Assembly (NCBI GenBank): GCA_905480645.1
Contig: CAJQRC010000009.1
Span: forward strand, 1 to 64,000
Source: an uncultured Tateyamaria sp.
GTDB taxonomy: Bacteria > Pseudomonadota > Alphaproteobacteria > Rhodobacterales > Rhodobacteraceae
Direction of reading: 5' to 3'
Length of the DNA: 64,000 nucleotides
This document shows, in pieces, positions 8,918-27,962 of the stretch. Positions within the stretch are counted from its first letter, which is position 1. Each line of letters opens with the position of its first letter. The position numbers and the translations under genes were made by a program. The notes beneath the pieces were generated by a model that did not search any database, was not told the origin of the DNA, and saw only the letters and a list, made by a program, of their open reading frames with translations.

Positions 8918-9238
8918 ATGGCGACCGTGCCTGTAACAGACGCAAACTTTGACGCCGAGGTCAAAAATTCCGACTTACCTGTAGTTGTAGACTTTTGGGC
9001 TGAATGGTGTGGTCCATGTAAGCAGATTGGACCAGTCCTAGAAGAGCTTTCGGTTGAGATGAGCGGTAAAGTAAAAATCGTTAAAATAAATGTGGACGAA
9101 AATCCTAACTCTCCCGCAGAAATGGGCGTTCGTGGTATTCCAGCCTTATTTTTATTTAAGAATGGTGAAGTTGTTTCCAATCGCGCTGGCGCTGCTCCTA
9201 AAGCAACTCTGCAGAGCTGGATTGAAGAGTCAATTTAA
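8918..9238 (+). CDS. trxA: Thioredoxin TrxA
   Basis: Cytoplasmic thiol-disulfide reductant of 106 residues with the canonical active site WCGPC (in [13 protein letters not shown]) and the cis-proline region RGIPALFLF. An AGGAG ribosome-binding site at 8906-8910 precedes the ATG by 7 nt. It lies 35 nt downstream of addA, an arrangement I recall from Rhodobacteraceae. A TATACT hexamer at 8889-8894 could be a -10 element, but no good -35 lies at normal spacing, so transcription from upstream is equally likely. Confidence 0.96.
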
Positions 9239-19640: not shown

Positions 19641-20240
19641 CTACCCTTCGATTACACCGCGTAATGTCAAGAACGCTAATAATTCTAAAAGTGGTAAACC
19701 AAGAACATGGAAATAGTCTCCTTCCACGCTGCGAAAAAGCCGAACACCTTCAGCCTCTAACTGATATCCACCAACACAGTTTTTTATTTGATCCCAGTTT
19801 CGATCGATATATTTGTCAATGTACGATGCTGATACATCGCGCATTCTCAAACGCACATGCCCGATGTGGCGCCATATTGGACGATTTTCATGATAAACAA
19901 CTGCCGCAGAAAATAAATCGTGTTGTTTTTTGCGCATATTTAGCAACTGCTGCTGTGCGTTTTTACGATCGCTTGGCTTAGATAATAACGAGCCTTCAAA
20001 AGATAGAACCTGATCACACCCAATAACCATTGATTTCGGGTACTTATTAGCTACCTTACGTGCTTTAAAATCGGCTAAAGTGTCTGCGATATCTCGGGGT
20101 GAATTATGATTGGCTATCATTGTTTCTTTAACAATATCTTCATCAACTCGAGCTTTAATTATTTCAAACTCAAGGCCAGAATTGCTCAATAGATCTGCTC
20201 GAGTTTTTGAACTGGAAGCCAGTATAAGCGAAATAGACAT
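19641..20240 (-). CDS. maf: Maf-family nucleoside triphosphate pyrophosphatase
   Basis: House-cleaning pyrophosphatase acting on modified or non-canonical nucleotides, historically linked to septum formation. The 199-residue protein has the family start [14 protein letters not shown], the [10 protein letters not shown] active-site region and the [14 protein letters not shown]-terminus. The Glu-rich motif of other Maf proteins appears as VDEDIVKE. I chose ATG at 20240 because an AGAG sequence lies 8 nt before it; a second ATG at 20246 would add two residues. The start abuts the candidate replication origin. Confidence 0.92.
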
Positions 20241-20248
20241 GTGCATAA
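20240..20248 (-). promoter_or_regulatory. DnaA box matching TTATNCACA
   Basis: On the minus strand the sequence is TTATGCACA, an exact fit to the relaxed E. coli consensus. It abuts the maf start codon at the left edge of the candidate origin. A 9-mer can occur by chance; its position is what gives it weight. Confidence 0.5.
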
Positions 20249-20546
20249 CTCTGTAAATCTATAGGGAGTATTTTTAATATATCAGCGATAAAACAGTTTT
20301 TCTTTCAAACCTACGGTAAAAATGATTGTTACAGGTACTTTTACTTATATTACTCCTAGCTGTATAAGGATAAACGTATCGCAAGGGATAACTAATTAAT
20401 ACAAGTTAATGAACATTTTTATCCCATGTTTAGATATAAATAAATTTTTTAACTTACTGATATTTATATAAAATTTTTCTTTTTACACTTACTATAATTT
20501 TTTATGGATATTAATAAACATAATGATAAGTATAAGGAAAACCATT

Positions 20547-20555
20547 TAATCCACA
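20547..20555 (+). promoter_or_regulatory. Near-consensus DnaA box TAATCCACA
   Basis: TAATCCACA differs by one base from TTATCCACA and by one from the TGATCCACA type reported in Caulobacter. It lies at the right edge of the AT-rich core of the candidate origin, 82 nt before the hemJ start. Confidence 0.5.
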
Positions 20556-20636
20556 GAAGATGGCAACACTACTAAATCATCATCTTTTCTATCTTCTTTA
20601 TTTATTATTTAAGTGAGAGATAAAAAGGACGGATGC

Positions 20637-21086
20637 ATGTATGATTTTATCATTTATTTATATCCATGGATTAAAGCATTTCATATAATGTCTGTAATAG
20701 CTTGGATGGCTGCCTTATTTTATTTGCCGCGTTTATTTGTCTACCACGCAGAACAAGTCGGTTTAAAAGGTGAAACCCATCAACTATTTCAAACAATGGA
20801 ATATAGATTATTAAAAATAATAATGAACCCTGCGATGCTCGCAACATGGATACTTGGACTATGTCTAGCTATCATCCCTGGTATAGTTGATTGGGGCGCT
20901 ATATGGCCGTGGACAAAGCTTTTTAGCATACTGAGCATGACTGCATTTCATGGATGGCTAGCTGGCCAGCGTAAAATGTTTGCTAATGGTGGACCAATTA
21001 AAACTGGGCGAAATTATCGCGTAATGAATGAAGTTCCAACATTATTAATGGTCATTATCGTTTTATCCGCAGTAGTAAAATTTTGA
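20637..21086 (+). CDS. hemJ: Protoporphyrinogen IX oxidase HemJ
   Basis: HemJ oxidises protoporphyrinogen IX to protoporphyrin IX in bacteria lacking HemG and HemY. The 149-residue membrane protein has four to five hydrophobic segments, His16 in FHIMSVIAWMA and His37 in LPRLFVYHAE (conserved in the family), and FHGWLAGQRKMF. The start is ATG 20637, preceded by AGGA at 20626-20629; an upstream GTG would add eight unlikely residues. It is the first gene on the right side of the candidate origin. hemE, which often precedes it in relatives, is absent here. Confidence 0.92.
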   Translation: MYDFIIYLYPWIKAFHIMSVIAWMAALFYLPRLFVYHAEQVGLKGETHQLFQTMEYRLLKIIMNPAMLATWILGLCLAIIPGIVDWGAIWPWTKLFSILSMTAFHGWLAGQRKMFANGGPIKTGRNYRVMNEVPTLLMVIIVLSAVVKF

Positions 21087-23796: not shown

Positions 23797-25665
23797 GTGT
23801 TTCACGTGAAACAATTTGATGTTGTTGTTATCGGTGGTGGTCATGCGGGATGTGAGGCGGCTCATGTGTCCGCGCGAATGAACACTTCGACTGCTCTTAT
23901 TACGATGAAGCGTGAAGGTATCGGTGTTATGTCATGTAATCCCGCTATTGGTGGTTTGGGTAAGGGACATCTTGTTCGGGAAATAGACGCACTTGATGGT
24001 TTAATGGGACGCGTTGCAGATGCATCCGGAATTCAATTTAGGTTATTAAATCGACGGAAAGGTCCTGCGGTACAAGGGCCGCGAACACAGGCCGATCGTA
24101 CAGAATATCAACGTACAATGCAAAAAATAATAGAAAAAACACAAAACTTAACTGTAGTAATTGGTGAAGTCGTTGATTTTATAATGGTTGGTAATAGAGT
24201 TGCCGGTGTGAAACTTTGCGATGGTTCTGAAATTTATTCGAAAATTGTTATTTTGACCACAGGAACATTTCTCCGGGGCGTTGTTCACATAGGAGATAGC
24301 TCTTACTCTGGTGGCCGTATGGGCGATAAAGCCGCATTTTTGCTAGCTGAACGTATTGATAGCTTTTGTCTTCCTTTAGGGCGGTTGAAAACAGGAACAC
24401 CACCTCGATTAGATAGTCAGACGATCGCGTGGGAACAGTTAGAGTTTCAAGCTGCAGACAAAGACCCTACTTTATTTTCTTTTATGTCGAGCAAACCAGC
24501 GCTTCCCCAAGTAAACTGTGGAATTACTCATACAAACCCCCAAACCCATGATATTATTCGGAAAAACCTTGAATTATCAGCAATGTACGGTGGACATATT
24601 GAAGGAGTTGGACCTAGATATTGTCCTTCTATTGAGGATAAAATTATTCGTTTCTCAGATAAAAGCTCGCACCAAATATTCTTAGAACCTGAAGGATTGA
24701 CCGACCGTACTGTTTATCCAAACGGGATTTCTACGTCATTACCTCAAAGCGTCCAGGTTGAATATGTACAATCTATATCGGGACTGGAGAAAGCAAAGAT
24801 ACTACAGCCGGGATATGCAATTGAGTATGATTACGTTGATCCTCGAGCTCTAAATGGAGATCTTAGTCTTTGCGATGTGCCTGGTTTATTTTTTGCAGGT
24901 CAAATCAACGGCACAACCGGCTATGAAGAGGCTGCAGCGCAAGGTCTTGTTGCCGGTCTTAATGCGGCGCGTTCAATTAAAGGTGAAGAGCCAGTCTTAT
25001 TTCAGCGGGATAATAGCTATATTGGCGTAATGATTGATGATTTAACAACGCGTGGCGTAACAGAGCCTTACCGCATGTTTACATCGCGTGCTGAGTTTAG
25101 GCTGTCGTTAAGAGCAGATAATGCAGATCAACGACTTACAGATATGGGTGTTGAAATTGGATGTGTAGGGGAAAAACGGCAAAAATCATACTATTATAAA
25201 AAAGAACAGCTAAATATCGGGCGTAGGCTGCTACTGGGTACACTTTATACACCAAAGGTTATTTCCGATGCTGGGATCTCCATTAATCAGGATGGGACAA
25301 AAAGATCAGCCTTTCAGCTCTTATCCTTTCCAGACGTTACATTTGACAATATAAAAAATCTTGATCCCTCACTAGTGGTTGTTTCAAAGGATATTGCCGA
25401 ACAGTTGTCAAAAGACGCACTTTACTCAAATTATATCGATCGGCAAAAAAAAGATGTTGAAAAATTAAAAAGAGATGAAAAGCATAAAATCCCACGAAAT
25501 TTTATTTATGCAGAGATTTCTGGATTAAGCGCTGAACTGATGGGTAAGCTGGAGTTAGTTCGCCCATCTAATCTTTCTCAAGCAAGTAGGATCGATGGTA
25601 TGACGCCGGCTGGACTGGCCCTTATTCTGGGTCGTATTCGTTTTTTAGAAAAGAAATCAGCGTGA
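23797..25665 (+). CDS. mnmG: tRNA uridine-5-carboxymethylaminomethyl modification enzyme MnmG (GidA)
   Basis: FAD-dependent partner of MnmE. The 622-residue protein has the Rossmann [10 protein letters not shown] near the start, the family signatures [11 protein letters not shown] and [24 protein letters not shown], and the C-terminal MnmE-binding helical domain. The GTG start at 23797 is unusual in that codons 1-6 contain a complete parS site, so the N-terminus reads MFHVKQ. The gene overlaps rsmG by 4 nt. Confidence 0.96.
23798..23813. other. parS site (perfect 16-bp palindrome) inside the mnmG start
   Basis: TGTTTCACGTGAAACA is an exact match to the ParB-binding palindrome TGTTNCACGTGAAACA. 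It overlaps the GTG start codon of mnmG (23797-23799) and encodes F-H-V-K-Q. ParB loads here as a CTP-dependent clamp in the general model. It is about 2.5 kb from parA and 3.4 kb from the candidate origin. Confidence 0.93.
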
Positions 25666-26279
25666 TAGAAGTGCCTACTTGGTTTTTACAGGATGTTTCA
25701 CGTGAAACATTGGATAAATTATGCGTATATAAAAAGCTTTTGAAAAAATGGACCAAAAAAATAAATCTTATATCTAGGTCTACATATGACCATATCGCAG
25801 ATCGTCATATTTGGGACTCAGCTCAAATTTTTGAACATATTGAAGGGAGGTGGGTTGACTTAGGAAGTGGAGGTGGGCTGCCAGGTGTGGTCCTTGCAAT
25901 TTTAGCTGATGGTAAAAAAAAGCCCTTAAATATTGTTCTAATAGAAAGTGACATACGAAAAGCAACTTTCTTGAGGACATGTAGTACTAAGCTAGAAGTT
26001 CCACTGAAAGTTATTTCGCAAAGAATAGATTGTATTGAGCCTCTGAATGCTGAAATTATATCAGCACGGGCTTTAACGAATTTGAATAATTTGATTGAGT
26101 TAGCAGAAATGCACTTAACACCAGGAGGAGCTAGCCTCTTTATGAAGGGTGCTAAATGGCAACAAGAACTTGAGGAGGCACGTCGTAATTGGCAGTTTTC
26201 TTGTGATGTGAAGCCTAGCTTGACTAATCCTGACGCGGCTATTTTGAGAATAAAGGATATCCGTCGTGTTGGACACTAA
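25662..26279 (+). CDS. rsmG: 16S rRNA (guanine527-N7)-methyltransferase RsmG (GidB)
   Basis: SAM-dependent methyltransferase modifying G527 of 16S rRNA. The 205-residue protein has the N-terminal VSRETLDKL, the SAM-binding loop [17 protein letters not shown], the [13 protein letters not shown] region and the late [14 protein letters not shown] 25662 overlaps the mnmG stop. The VSRET codons are a second parS site. The parA start lies 14 nt inside its 3' end. Confidence 0.94.
25694..25709. other. parS site inside the rsmG coding sequence
   Basis: A second exact TGTTTCACGTGAAACA, here encoding V-S-R-E-T of RsmG near its N-terminus. Two identical palindromes 1.9 kb apart, close to parAB, are expected for a chromosomal centromere cluster. 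Confidence 0.93.
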
Positions 26280-27060
26280 TTGCCTATCTGAGCCAAAAAT
26301 CATTTCTATTACAAATCAAAAAGGTGGAGTTGGTAAAACAACAACAACTGTGAATTTGGCAGCAGCTTTAGCGGAAAAAAAATACTCTGTGCTGGTGATT
26401 GATCTTGATCCACAAGGAAGTGCGTCGACAGGCTTAGGGATCGATATGGACGCTCGATCCTTTACTACATATGACTTACTTATTGATAATATTGACTTAA
26501 ATGATATTATTTTAAAAACGAATTTTATCAATATATCTATTATACCAGCAACTGTAGATTTAAGCTCAGCTGATATTGATTTAATTTCAAATGAGCGACG
26601 CAGCTTTTTACTTCATGATGCGTTACGTCAGCACAAAATGAAAAATTTTAACTTTGACTATATCCTTATTGATTGTCCGCCATCTCTAAATTTACTGACC
26701 ATCAATGCCATGATAGCGTCACACTCTGTATTGATTCCACTTCAAAGTGAGTTTTTTGCTTTGGAAGGCCTTTCTCAGTTGATGCTCACAATCCGCGAAG
26801 TCCGTCAGATTGGAAACCCTGATTTGCGTATAGCAGGTATAGTTCTGACGATGTATGATGCTCGCAACAATTTATCCTTACAAGTTGAAGAAGATGCGCG
26901 AAATAATTTAGGTGATCTCGTGTTTAAAACCTGTATACCGCGTAATGTTCGCGTTAGTGAATCGCCATCTTTTGCGATGCCTGTTTTGAGTTATGATACA
27001 ACTTCAAAAGGCGCTAACGCATACCGAGAATTAGCAGTTGAATTAATTGAACAAAACTGA
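26266..27060 (+). CDS. parA: Chromosome-partitioning ATPase ParA
   Basis: ParA is a DNA-binding ATPase whose gradient pulls ParB-parS complexes during segregation. The 264-residue protein has the deviant Walker A KGGVGKTTTTVNLAAAL, VIDLDPQGSASTGLG and the Walker B region YILIDCPPSLNLLTINAM. GTG 26266 follows AAGGA by 8 nt and overlaps rsmG by 14 nt; the adjacent TTG 26269 is an alternative. The gene is coupled to parB, which starts 17 nt after its stop. Confidence 0.96.
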   Translation: MLDTNCLSEPKIISITNQKGGVGKTTTTVNLAAALAEKKYSVLVIDLDPQGSASTGLGIDMDARSFTTYDLLIDNIDLNDIILKTNFINISIIPATVDLSSADIDLISNERRSFLLHDALRQHKMKNFNFDYILIDCPPSLNLLTINAMIASHSVLIPLQSEFFALEGLSQLMLTIREVRQIGNPDLRIAGIVLTMYDARNNLSLQVEEDARNNLGDLVFKTCIPRNVRVSESPSFAMPVLSYDTTSKGANAYRELAVELIEQN

Positions 27061-27077: not shown

Positions 27078-27962
27078 ATGGTGAGTAGCGATAAAAAACG
27101 TGGGCTGGGACGTGGCTTATCTGCTTTGATGGCGGATGTTAACGAACCAAAGACAAATGAAATTATTAAATCTTTAGATCAAACAGTTGCTATTGAACGT
27201 ATCCGTCCGAATCCCAATCAGCCTCGTAAAAATTTTGAAAGTAACTCTTTAGATGATCTAGTTGCGTCAATTAAAGAAAAAGGTGTTTTGCAGCCGTTAA
27301 TTGTACGCACAGTGGGTAATAATTTTGAAATTGTGGCTGGTGAACGCCGTTGGCGCGCTGCGCAAAAAGCTCAAATTCACAAATTGCCAGTTATTATTAG
27401 AAACTTTACGGATGCAGAGGTTCTTGAAGTAGCTATTATAGAGAACATTCAACGGGCAGACTTAAATCCAATTGAGGAAGCCGCTAGTTTTAGACAATTA
27501 ATGGAACGTTTTGGCCATACTCAAGAAATGTTGGCAGAAGCACTAGGGAAAAGTCGTAGTTATATTGCAAATTTGCTGCGATTATTAAACTTACCTAAAG
27601 CTATTCAAGAATACGTATTGAGAGGTGATTTAAGCGCAGGTCATGCCCGCGCTTTAATAACAATTGAAAAACCAGAAATTATCGTAAAAAAGATAATAGA
27701 AGATGGATTGTCTGTTAGACAGACCGAAGCCTTAGTCAGAAAGCTTTCTTTAGGTGCAGACGAAGGAAAGCCAAATAAAGAAATTGTGAGAAGGCGTAGT
27801 GAGAAAGACGCCGATACACGCGCACTTGAAAGTGATTTATCGGCTGCTTTAGGTTTAAAAGTGTCATTGTCTTTTGATACAAACGGACAGACGGGACAAT
27901 TAAAACTTCGTTATAATTCATTGGATCAATTAGACGACTTGTGCCGAAAGCTTAGTATTTAA
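27078..27962 (+). CDS. parB: Chromosome-partitioning protein ParB
   Basis: CTP-binding centromere protein. The 294-residue protein has the ParA-contacting N-terminus (KRGLGRGLSALMADV), the CTPase box with NQPRKNF and VAGERRWRAAQKA, the helix-turn-helix EMLAEALGKSRSYIANLLRLLNLP that reads parS, and a C-terminal dimer domain. Its targets are probably the two sites at 23798 and 25694. It converges on hemW with a 4-nt overlap of stop codons. Confidence 0.96.
   Translation: MVSSDKKRGLGRGLSALMADVNEPKTNEIIKSLDQTVAIERIRPNPNQPRKNFESNSLDDLVASIKEKGVLQPLIVRTVGNNFEIVAGERRWRAAQKAQIHKLPVIIRNFTDAEVLEVAIIENIQRADLNPIEEAASFRQLMERFGHTQEMLAEALGKSRSYIANLLRLLNLPKAIQEYVLRGDLSAGHARALITIEKPEIIVKKIIEDGLSVRQTEALVRKLSLGADEGKPNKEIVRRRSEKDADTRALESDLSAALGLKVSLSFDTNGQTGQLKLRYNSLDQLDDLCRKLSI

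Follow-up and report, generated by a model that had tools for sequence, protein, structure and literature searches.

The 396-bp gap between the divergent genes maf and hemJ is, with little doubt, the chromosomal origin of replication (oriC) of an uncultured Tateyamaria sp., as an earlier note on this DNA had proposed. The minimum of the GC skew, the synteny, the registers of the DnaA boxes, an IHF-like site, and the neighbouring parABS genes all agree, which supports this reading, and relatives separate the gap from the dnaA locus. The window—the whole stretch of 64,000 nucleotides analysed—is part of contig C9 (70,370 bases) in a 67-contig genome of 3.07 Mb, and comparison of hemJ places its closest relatives in Tateyamaria, Rhodobacteraceae. 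GC content is 44% over 1.25 Mb of the host genome and 42% in the window (1–64000), and that of a relative of the same genus (G003) is 57–65% across 20 sampled pieces; 19 genomes of the genus span 4.1–5.6 Mb, as compared with 3.07 Mb in the host. The host thus represents an AT-shifted, reduced lineage, on which a literature search for Tateyamaria and low GC returned nothing of use. The gap and the genes at its borders are:

19641..20246, minus strand: maf (nucleotide pyrophosphatase; TIGR00172 above cut-off)
20241..20636, no strand: putative oriC, 396-bp gap between divergent maf and hemJ, 25.5% GC
20637..21086, plus strand: hemJ (protoporphyrinogen oxidase; TIGR00701 just above cut-off)

Translation of maf probably starts at the ATG at 20240, as in relatives, and not at 20246. 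The gap had been called gene-free, and its longest frame encodes 36 amino acids, leaving aside the maf and hemJ ends as well as a 48-amino-acid frame entering from maf. It had also been called very AT-rich: at about 25% GC it is the most AT-rich 388-bp place of the window, stretches equally rich starting solely at 20219–20342, and its minimum of 24% is the lowest 388-bp value in the 1.25 Mb sampled of the host genome. The criteria for an alphaproteobacterial oriC in the available excerpts of PMC1914354 include an intergenic length of 200–1000 bp, into which the 396 bp fall, and a raised AT content, here represented by the window's lowest GC value.

In 75 of 80 related loci, divergent maf and hemJ genes flank a gap of 324–434 bp. 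Within the reach of the contigs, almost every one of these loci also has dnaQ-coaE-aroE on one flank and rho-mnmE-mnmG on the opposite flank. Common boundary genes are a further criterion in the excerpts of PMC1914354, and the maf/hemJ pair is common to these 75 family loci. The sample consists of the best 80 of 257 loci and is thus biased towards near relatives; its sequences, being related, are not independent. Counts of gaps refer to 76 (the window plus 75 related gaps), loci L081, L090, L105, L106, and L111 being omitted since they have no maf match; counts of skew refer to the 69 loci with full flanks, 11 of the 80 being shorter; loci L003–L032, many of which duplicate the same genomes, are excluded throughout. 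The gap alignment of relatives, to which the comparison was confined, contains conserved blocks. As a side observation, locus L049 carries a Roseobacter-type origin region on a contig labelled as a Nitrospira MAG, probably a binning error.

In Caulobacter, maf presumably lies beside COG1806. The host carries hemE on contig C10, and a search of its genome for COG1806/PF03618 found nothing; the gap thus has the Caulobacter neighbourhood without the Caulobacter boundary genes. The statement that the gap sits where Caulobacter has its origin therefore holds for the wider neighbourhood and fails for the borders, given that the origins of Caulobacter (Cori) and Rickettsia both lie between hemE and COG1806 (PMC1914354, in excerpt).

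Within the gap, five registers of DnaA boxes were recognized in the alignment, of which the window keeps the outer two, b1 and b5. These and the other elements of the gap are:

20240..20248, minus strand: DnaA box b1, TTATGCACA, exact; shares one base with the probable maf start codon
20350..20373, no strand: conserved block TTACTCC...AAGGATAA; keeps 11 of the 11 columns conserved among relatives
20384..20392, minus strand: register b2, decayed DnaA box (alignment)
20406..20415, plus strand: register b3, decayed DnaA box (alignment)
20434..20474, no strand: candidate unwinding site 1, weakest duplex of the window's gap in the nearest-neighbour profile
20450..20462, minus strand: putative IHF site TATCAGTAAGTTA, exact match to WATCARNNNNTTR
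20523..20531, minus strand: register b4, decayed DnaA box (alignment), weak in relatives too
20547..20555, plus strand: DnaA box b5, TAATCCACA, one mismatch; conserved off-consensus site
20569..20588, plus strand: element CTACTAAATCATCATCTTTT, conserved beside b5
20572..20612, no strand: candidate unwinding site 2, T-rich tract beside b5 on the hemJ side

Both boxes announced for the gap are present, b1 as its only exact box and b5 with one mismatch; the overlap of b1 with the start codon follows from the probable start at 20240. The alignment across relatives that had been suggested as a check bears them out. Boxes with at most one mismatch occupy registers b1 to b5 in 15, 6, 14, 8, and 15 of the 16 Tateyamaria-group gaps including the window (opposite-strand controls 0, 1, 0, 2, and 0) and in 48, 18, 43, 32, and 51 of all 76 gaps (controls 0, 4, 2, 8, and 3), the register windows having been picked after the alignment was viewed. 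Judged by box counts against these controls across the 76 gaps, b2 and b4 are the least certain registers. Exact boxes occur in 41 of the 76 gaps, where 1.2 are expected. Mere abundance of boxes in the window was rejected as proof of an origin: it contains 54 boxes with at most one mismatch, below the shuffle mean of 76.8, and two such boxes within 410 bp are found at 5.1% of its positions. When boxes with up to two mismatches are counted, the 14 in the gap are equalled at 0.46% of window positions.

The mismatch in b5 is a conserved feature and not a mark of decay, since relatives keep it. The form TAATCCACA is found in 14 of 16 Tateyamaria-group gaps and in 14 of 14 Roseobacter/Sulfitobacter-type gaps (a group likewise chosen after viewing the alignment), and exact TTATNCACA in none of these 30; among all 76 gaps the counts are 35 and 1. 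The perfect-box form of b5 would read TTATCCACA; b5 may be a weak DnaA site. The Caulobacter G-box TGATCCACA also departs from consensus at position 2, which is A and not G in b5; in the excerpts seen of PMC4285127 and PMC4468827, the G-box is a moderate-affinity site, and mutations raising DnaA affinity can lower replication. No paper describing the b5 pattern was found in the literature searched, and a search by the letters TAATCCACA gave, judging by titles, no replication-origin paper among the matches listed.

The putative IHF site matches exactly the sequence WATCARNNNNTTR, which we take to be the IHF consensus. It also fits the form WATCAN5WTR given in the text of PMC1914354, as excerpted. 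Together with b1, which is exact, and b5, which is off-consensus and conserved, this exact motif supplies the DnaA and IHF sites that the same source lists for an origin. The strict motif lies in register in 15 of 76 gaps (shuffles predict 0.2), and a relaxed form, WWWCARNNNNTTR, picked after the alignment had been viewed, in 51 of 76 (0.6 expected, largest shuffle value 2, plus-strand control 4). The host genome has three matches to genes of the HU/IHF family. The best-kept block of the gap, 20350–20373, forms an imperfect inverted repeat, TTACTCCT...AAGGATAA; to our knowledge, no familiar type of site accounts for it.

On the hemJ side, b5 together with CTACTAAATCATCATCTTTT occurs once in the host genome. 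ATCATC is found in the part adjoining b5 in 52 of 76 gaps (5.7 expected), and a box followed by CTAC and ATCATC in 31 of 76 (absent from all 20 shuffle sets). As a class-wide motif this strict pattern was discarded: it occurs in 6 of 289 class genomes including the host, the five others being counted by pattern, irrespective of location in the genome, and three further genomes of the same family in that sample lack it. The 40 bp of weakest duplex are found towards hemJ in 46 gaps and centrally in the other 30, including that of the window. The arrangement recalls the basal unwinding system (BUS; Pelliciari 2021), in which a DnaA box is joined by a GC cluster and DnaA-trios and whose rule, in the excerpts of PMC8287927, specifies a box with at most two mismatches, a spacer of 0–16 bp, and at least three NAN DnaA-trios: b5 is followed at 13 bp by CTACTA and then by a repeated triplet and a T-rich tract. 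It differs in that b5 has two trios at spacer 13, whereas the run of four begins at spacer 20, beyond the limit of 16. Elsewhere in the gap the rule fits formally twice, at a weak box near 20503 and where b1 runs into the maf coding sequence, but shuffled gaps fit it in 12–26 of 76 cases, and these two fits are therefore not counted as evidence. Although 73 of 76 gaps score in the formal scan, as compared with 12–26 in the ten shuffle sets, the scan was rejected as evidence, a share of its matches being b1 running into maf, where the NTN triplets arise from the hydrophobic codons of that gene. The window's longest NTN run before hemJ is 4 (shuffle mean 3.98).

The parABS genes lie beyond hemJ:

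23798..23813, no strand: parS, exact 16-mer at the start of mnmG, 3.4 kb from the gap centre
25694..25709, no strand: parS, exact 16-mer in rsmG, 5.3 kb from the gap centre
26266..27060, plus strand: parA-type ATPase (ParA-family matches and position beside parB)
27078..27962, plus strand: parB (TIGR00180 above cut-off)

Both parS sites, at the distances first reported, are exact copies of what we take to be the 16-mer consensus; the 25 matches listed for the parA-type frame all fall below curated cut-offs.

The cumulative GC skew of the window reaches its minimum at 20,596, within the gap, with a skew of -0.026 to the left and +0.099 to the right, a contrast matched by 0 of 2000 block permutations. 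The cumulative keto and AT curves have their extremes at 8,979 and 10,198, about 10 kb off, which counts against a perfectly clean signal. Of the family loci, 67 of 69 show the higher skew towards hemJ, and in 52 the sign itself changes. A shift in skew is also among the criteria excerpted from PMC1914354 and is seen here, less cleanly in the relative G015. When eleven contigs of the host were sampled whole or in part (1.25 Mb with C9, 41% of the genome), the best change point was a negative-to-positive change of sign in C9 only. A positive-to-negative switch near 58 kb of contig C2 is a candidate for the terminus side.

We hold the alternative that the origin adjoins dnaA, or sits at another cluster of DnaA boxes, to be very improbable. 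The host genome contains dnaA on contig C3, where the cumulative skew has its minimum at 21,037, about 2 kb from the gene, with a fall and rise of 294 and 2740 as compared with 242 and 2112 at the gap; this similar minimum rules out reading the host skew as a single origin-type switch, and host-genome skew alone cannot separate the gap from dnaA. The distance between dnaA and hemJ is 47 to 216 kb in four relatives, and coarse skew therefore cannot exclude an origin at dnaA; by the same token, the C3 minimum may belong to the same origin arm. Fine skew was examined in three of these four (G003, G015, and G022, leaving out G032). Twenty pieces along the 3.86-Mb contig of G003 place the change from negative to positive skew at 3.20–3.40 Mb, an interval in which hemJ (3.301 Mb) as well as dnaA (3.254 Mb) is located and which called for a closer look; pieces at 0.4 and 3.0 Mb in G003 and at 0–0.38 Mb in G022 have the wrong sign or hardly any. 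Over 200 kb of G003 (same genus), the minimum falls 1.2 kb from the start of hemJ, and dnaA is 48 kb away from it; over 279 kb of G022 (same family), the distances are 1.6 kb to hemJ and 83 kb to dnaA. Over 200 kb of G015 (same genus), the minimum is 88 kb distant from hemJ and 39 kb distant from dnaA in a near-flat stretch, and a clear run of negative skew ends at hemJ. Cumulative skew, put forward earlier as a check over the whole chromosome, favours the gap in the window and at hemJ in G003 and G022, and is qualified by C3 and G015. What argues further against dnaA is that in all three relatives boxes with at most one mismatch cluster most densely at the gap (450 bp there contain 4, 5, and 6 of them, the runner-up clusters within the 200–279 kb 2, 2, and 3), and that the 15–25 kb stretch of C3 around dnaA has neither an exact box nor a 388-bp stretch below 37.6% GC. 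The gap is also the 388 bp of lowest GC in G003 and G015, not in G022. Pairs of exact boxes within about 600 bp do occur on C4, C10, C31, C48, C61, and C62, but the 400-bp stretches at these six pairs have 35–46% GC, and the C10 pair was rejected as an origin because it falls inside a 526-amino-acid frame that by eye resembles an ABC-transporter ATPase.

No more credible is the view that the gap is only a regulatory region shared by maf and hemJ, on which DnaA acts as a transcription factor, with the origin elsewhere nearby. The two genes do diverge, b1 abuts the maf start, and many of the 101 exact boxes in the host genome are presumably not origins. Such a region would, however, have to coincide with the window's GC-skew minimum and its most AT-rich place, with the higher skew on the hemJ side in family loci, with an IHF-like site in conserved register, and with the densest box cluster in the three relatives. 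It is just as improbable that the gap is a former origin, decayed in the AT-shifted lineage and now weak or replaced. Boxes b2–b4 have been lost, and of 137 columns conserved in the 15 other Tateyamaria-group gaps the window keeps 106, whereas four relatives in the same test keep 120/135, 123/136, 120/134, and 121/136; the losses include b2–b3 (9 of 15 kept) and the stretch preceding b5. Yet b1 (19 of 23), the block 20350–20373, and the stretch from b5 to the ATC element (47 of 58) are largely kept, the IHF-like site is exact, and the skew minimum still falls within the gap.

Taking the gap as oriC, we infer a course of initiation from the layout of its sites. DnaA would bind the outer sites b1 and b5, and IHF would bend the DNA at 20450–20462 and thereby bring the two halves together. 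The bending would let DnaA fill weak inner sites, whereupon DnaA may open an adjacent AT-rich tract, either 20572–20612 beside b5 or 20434–20474. ParB bound at parS would then segregate the new origins.

The likeness to Cori of Caulobacter crescentus comprises the AT-rich gap, the DnaA boxes, and one IHF site (excerpts of PMC1914354, PMC4468827, and PMC4285127); here, in contrast, no CtrA site is present and the boundaries are not hemE/COG1806. As noted at the outset of this work, no standard site exists: exact TTAA-N7-TTAA is absent from the gap, and its four one-mismatch sites equal the 4.0 expected by chance. Across the 76 gaps the motif occurs in nine (1.0 expected), six of which are Roseobacter; in those loci (L048, L050, L051, L052, L070, and L107) this CtrA-like palindrome stands at a fixed place about 22 bp from the maf start. 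A general link to CtrA was dismissed, the strict box-plus-CtrA pattern occurring in 1 of 295 family genomes (294 genera). According to the excerpts of PMC8116508, those Rhodobacterales that have been studied can do without ctrA, although an effect on replication is reported for some. GANTC, the CcrM target, is rarer than in shuffles (2.4 per gap versus 4.0 over 76 gaps; 0 versus 2.1 in the window's gap).

For 101 Rhodobacteraceae strains, oriC was placed by Ori-Finder, with criteria including closeness to parAB and the GC-disparity minimum (Kopejtka 2019, PMC6699656, in excerpt). The gap shares with these origins the nearness to parAB, the GC-disparity minimum, and a local GC minimum. The excerpts describe no anatomy at the level of single sites, and the main text of that paper mentions neither maf nor hemE; the box registers and the IHF-like site were worked out here. 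The gap is an ordinary origin for its family, little described, and new as a member; the detail that stands out is the conserved imperfect b5 with its neighbouring element. With more doubt than belief, we suggest that the Roseobacter group possesses a variant unwinding module—off-consensus TAATCCACA plus an ATC-repeat/T-rich tract outside BUS spacing—and that the AT-shifted Tateyamaria lineage might have pared its origin down to the outer pair of boxes, a single IHF site, and this module, which would be a natural minimal origin. In the parts of the literature examined, marine roseobacter origins are usually placed by software and not dissected, and the map of registers, IHF-like site, and off-consensus box offers direct targets for mutation. 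The AT-shifted lineage reveals which parts of an origin survive strong mutation pressure. Should b5 be tuned, these origins would have weak DnaA sites in common with that of Caulobacter, here without CtrA.
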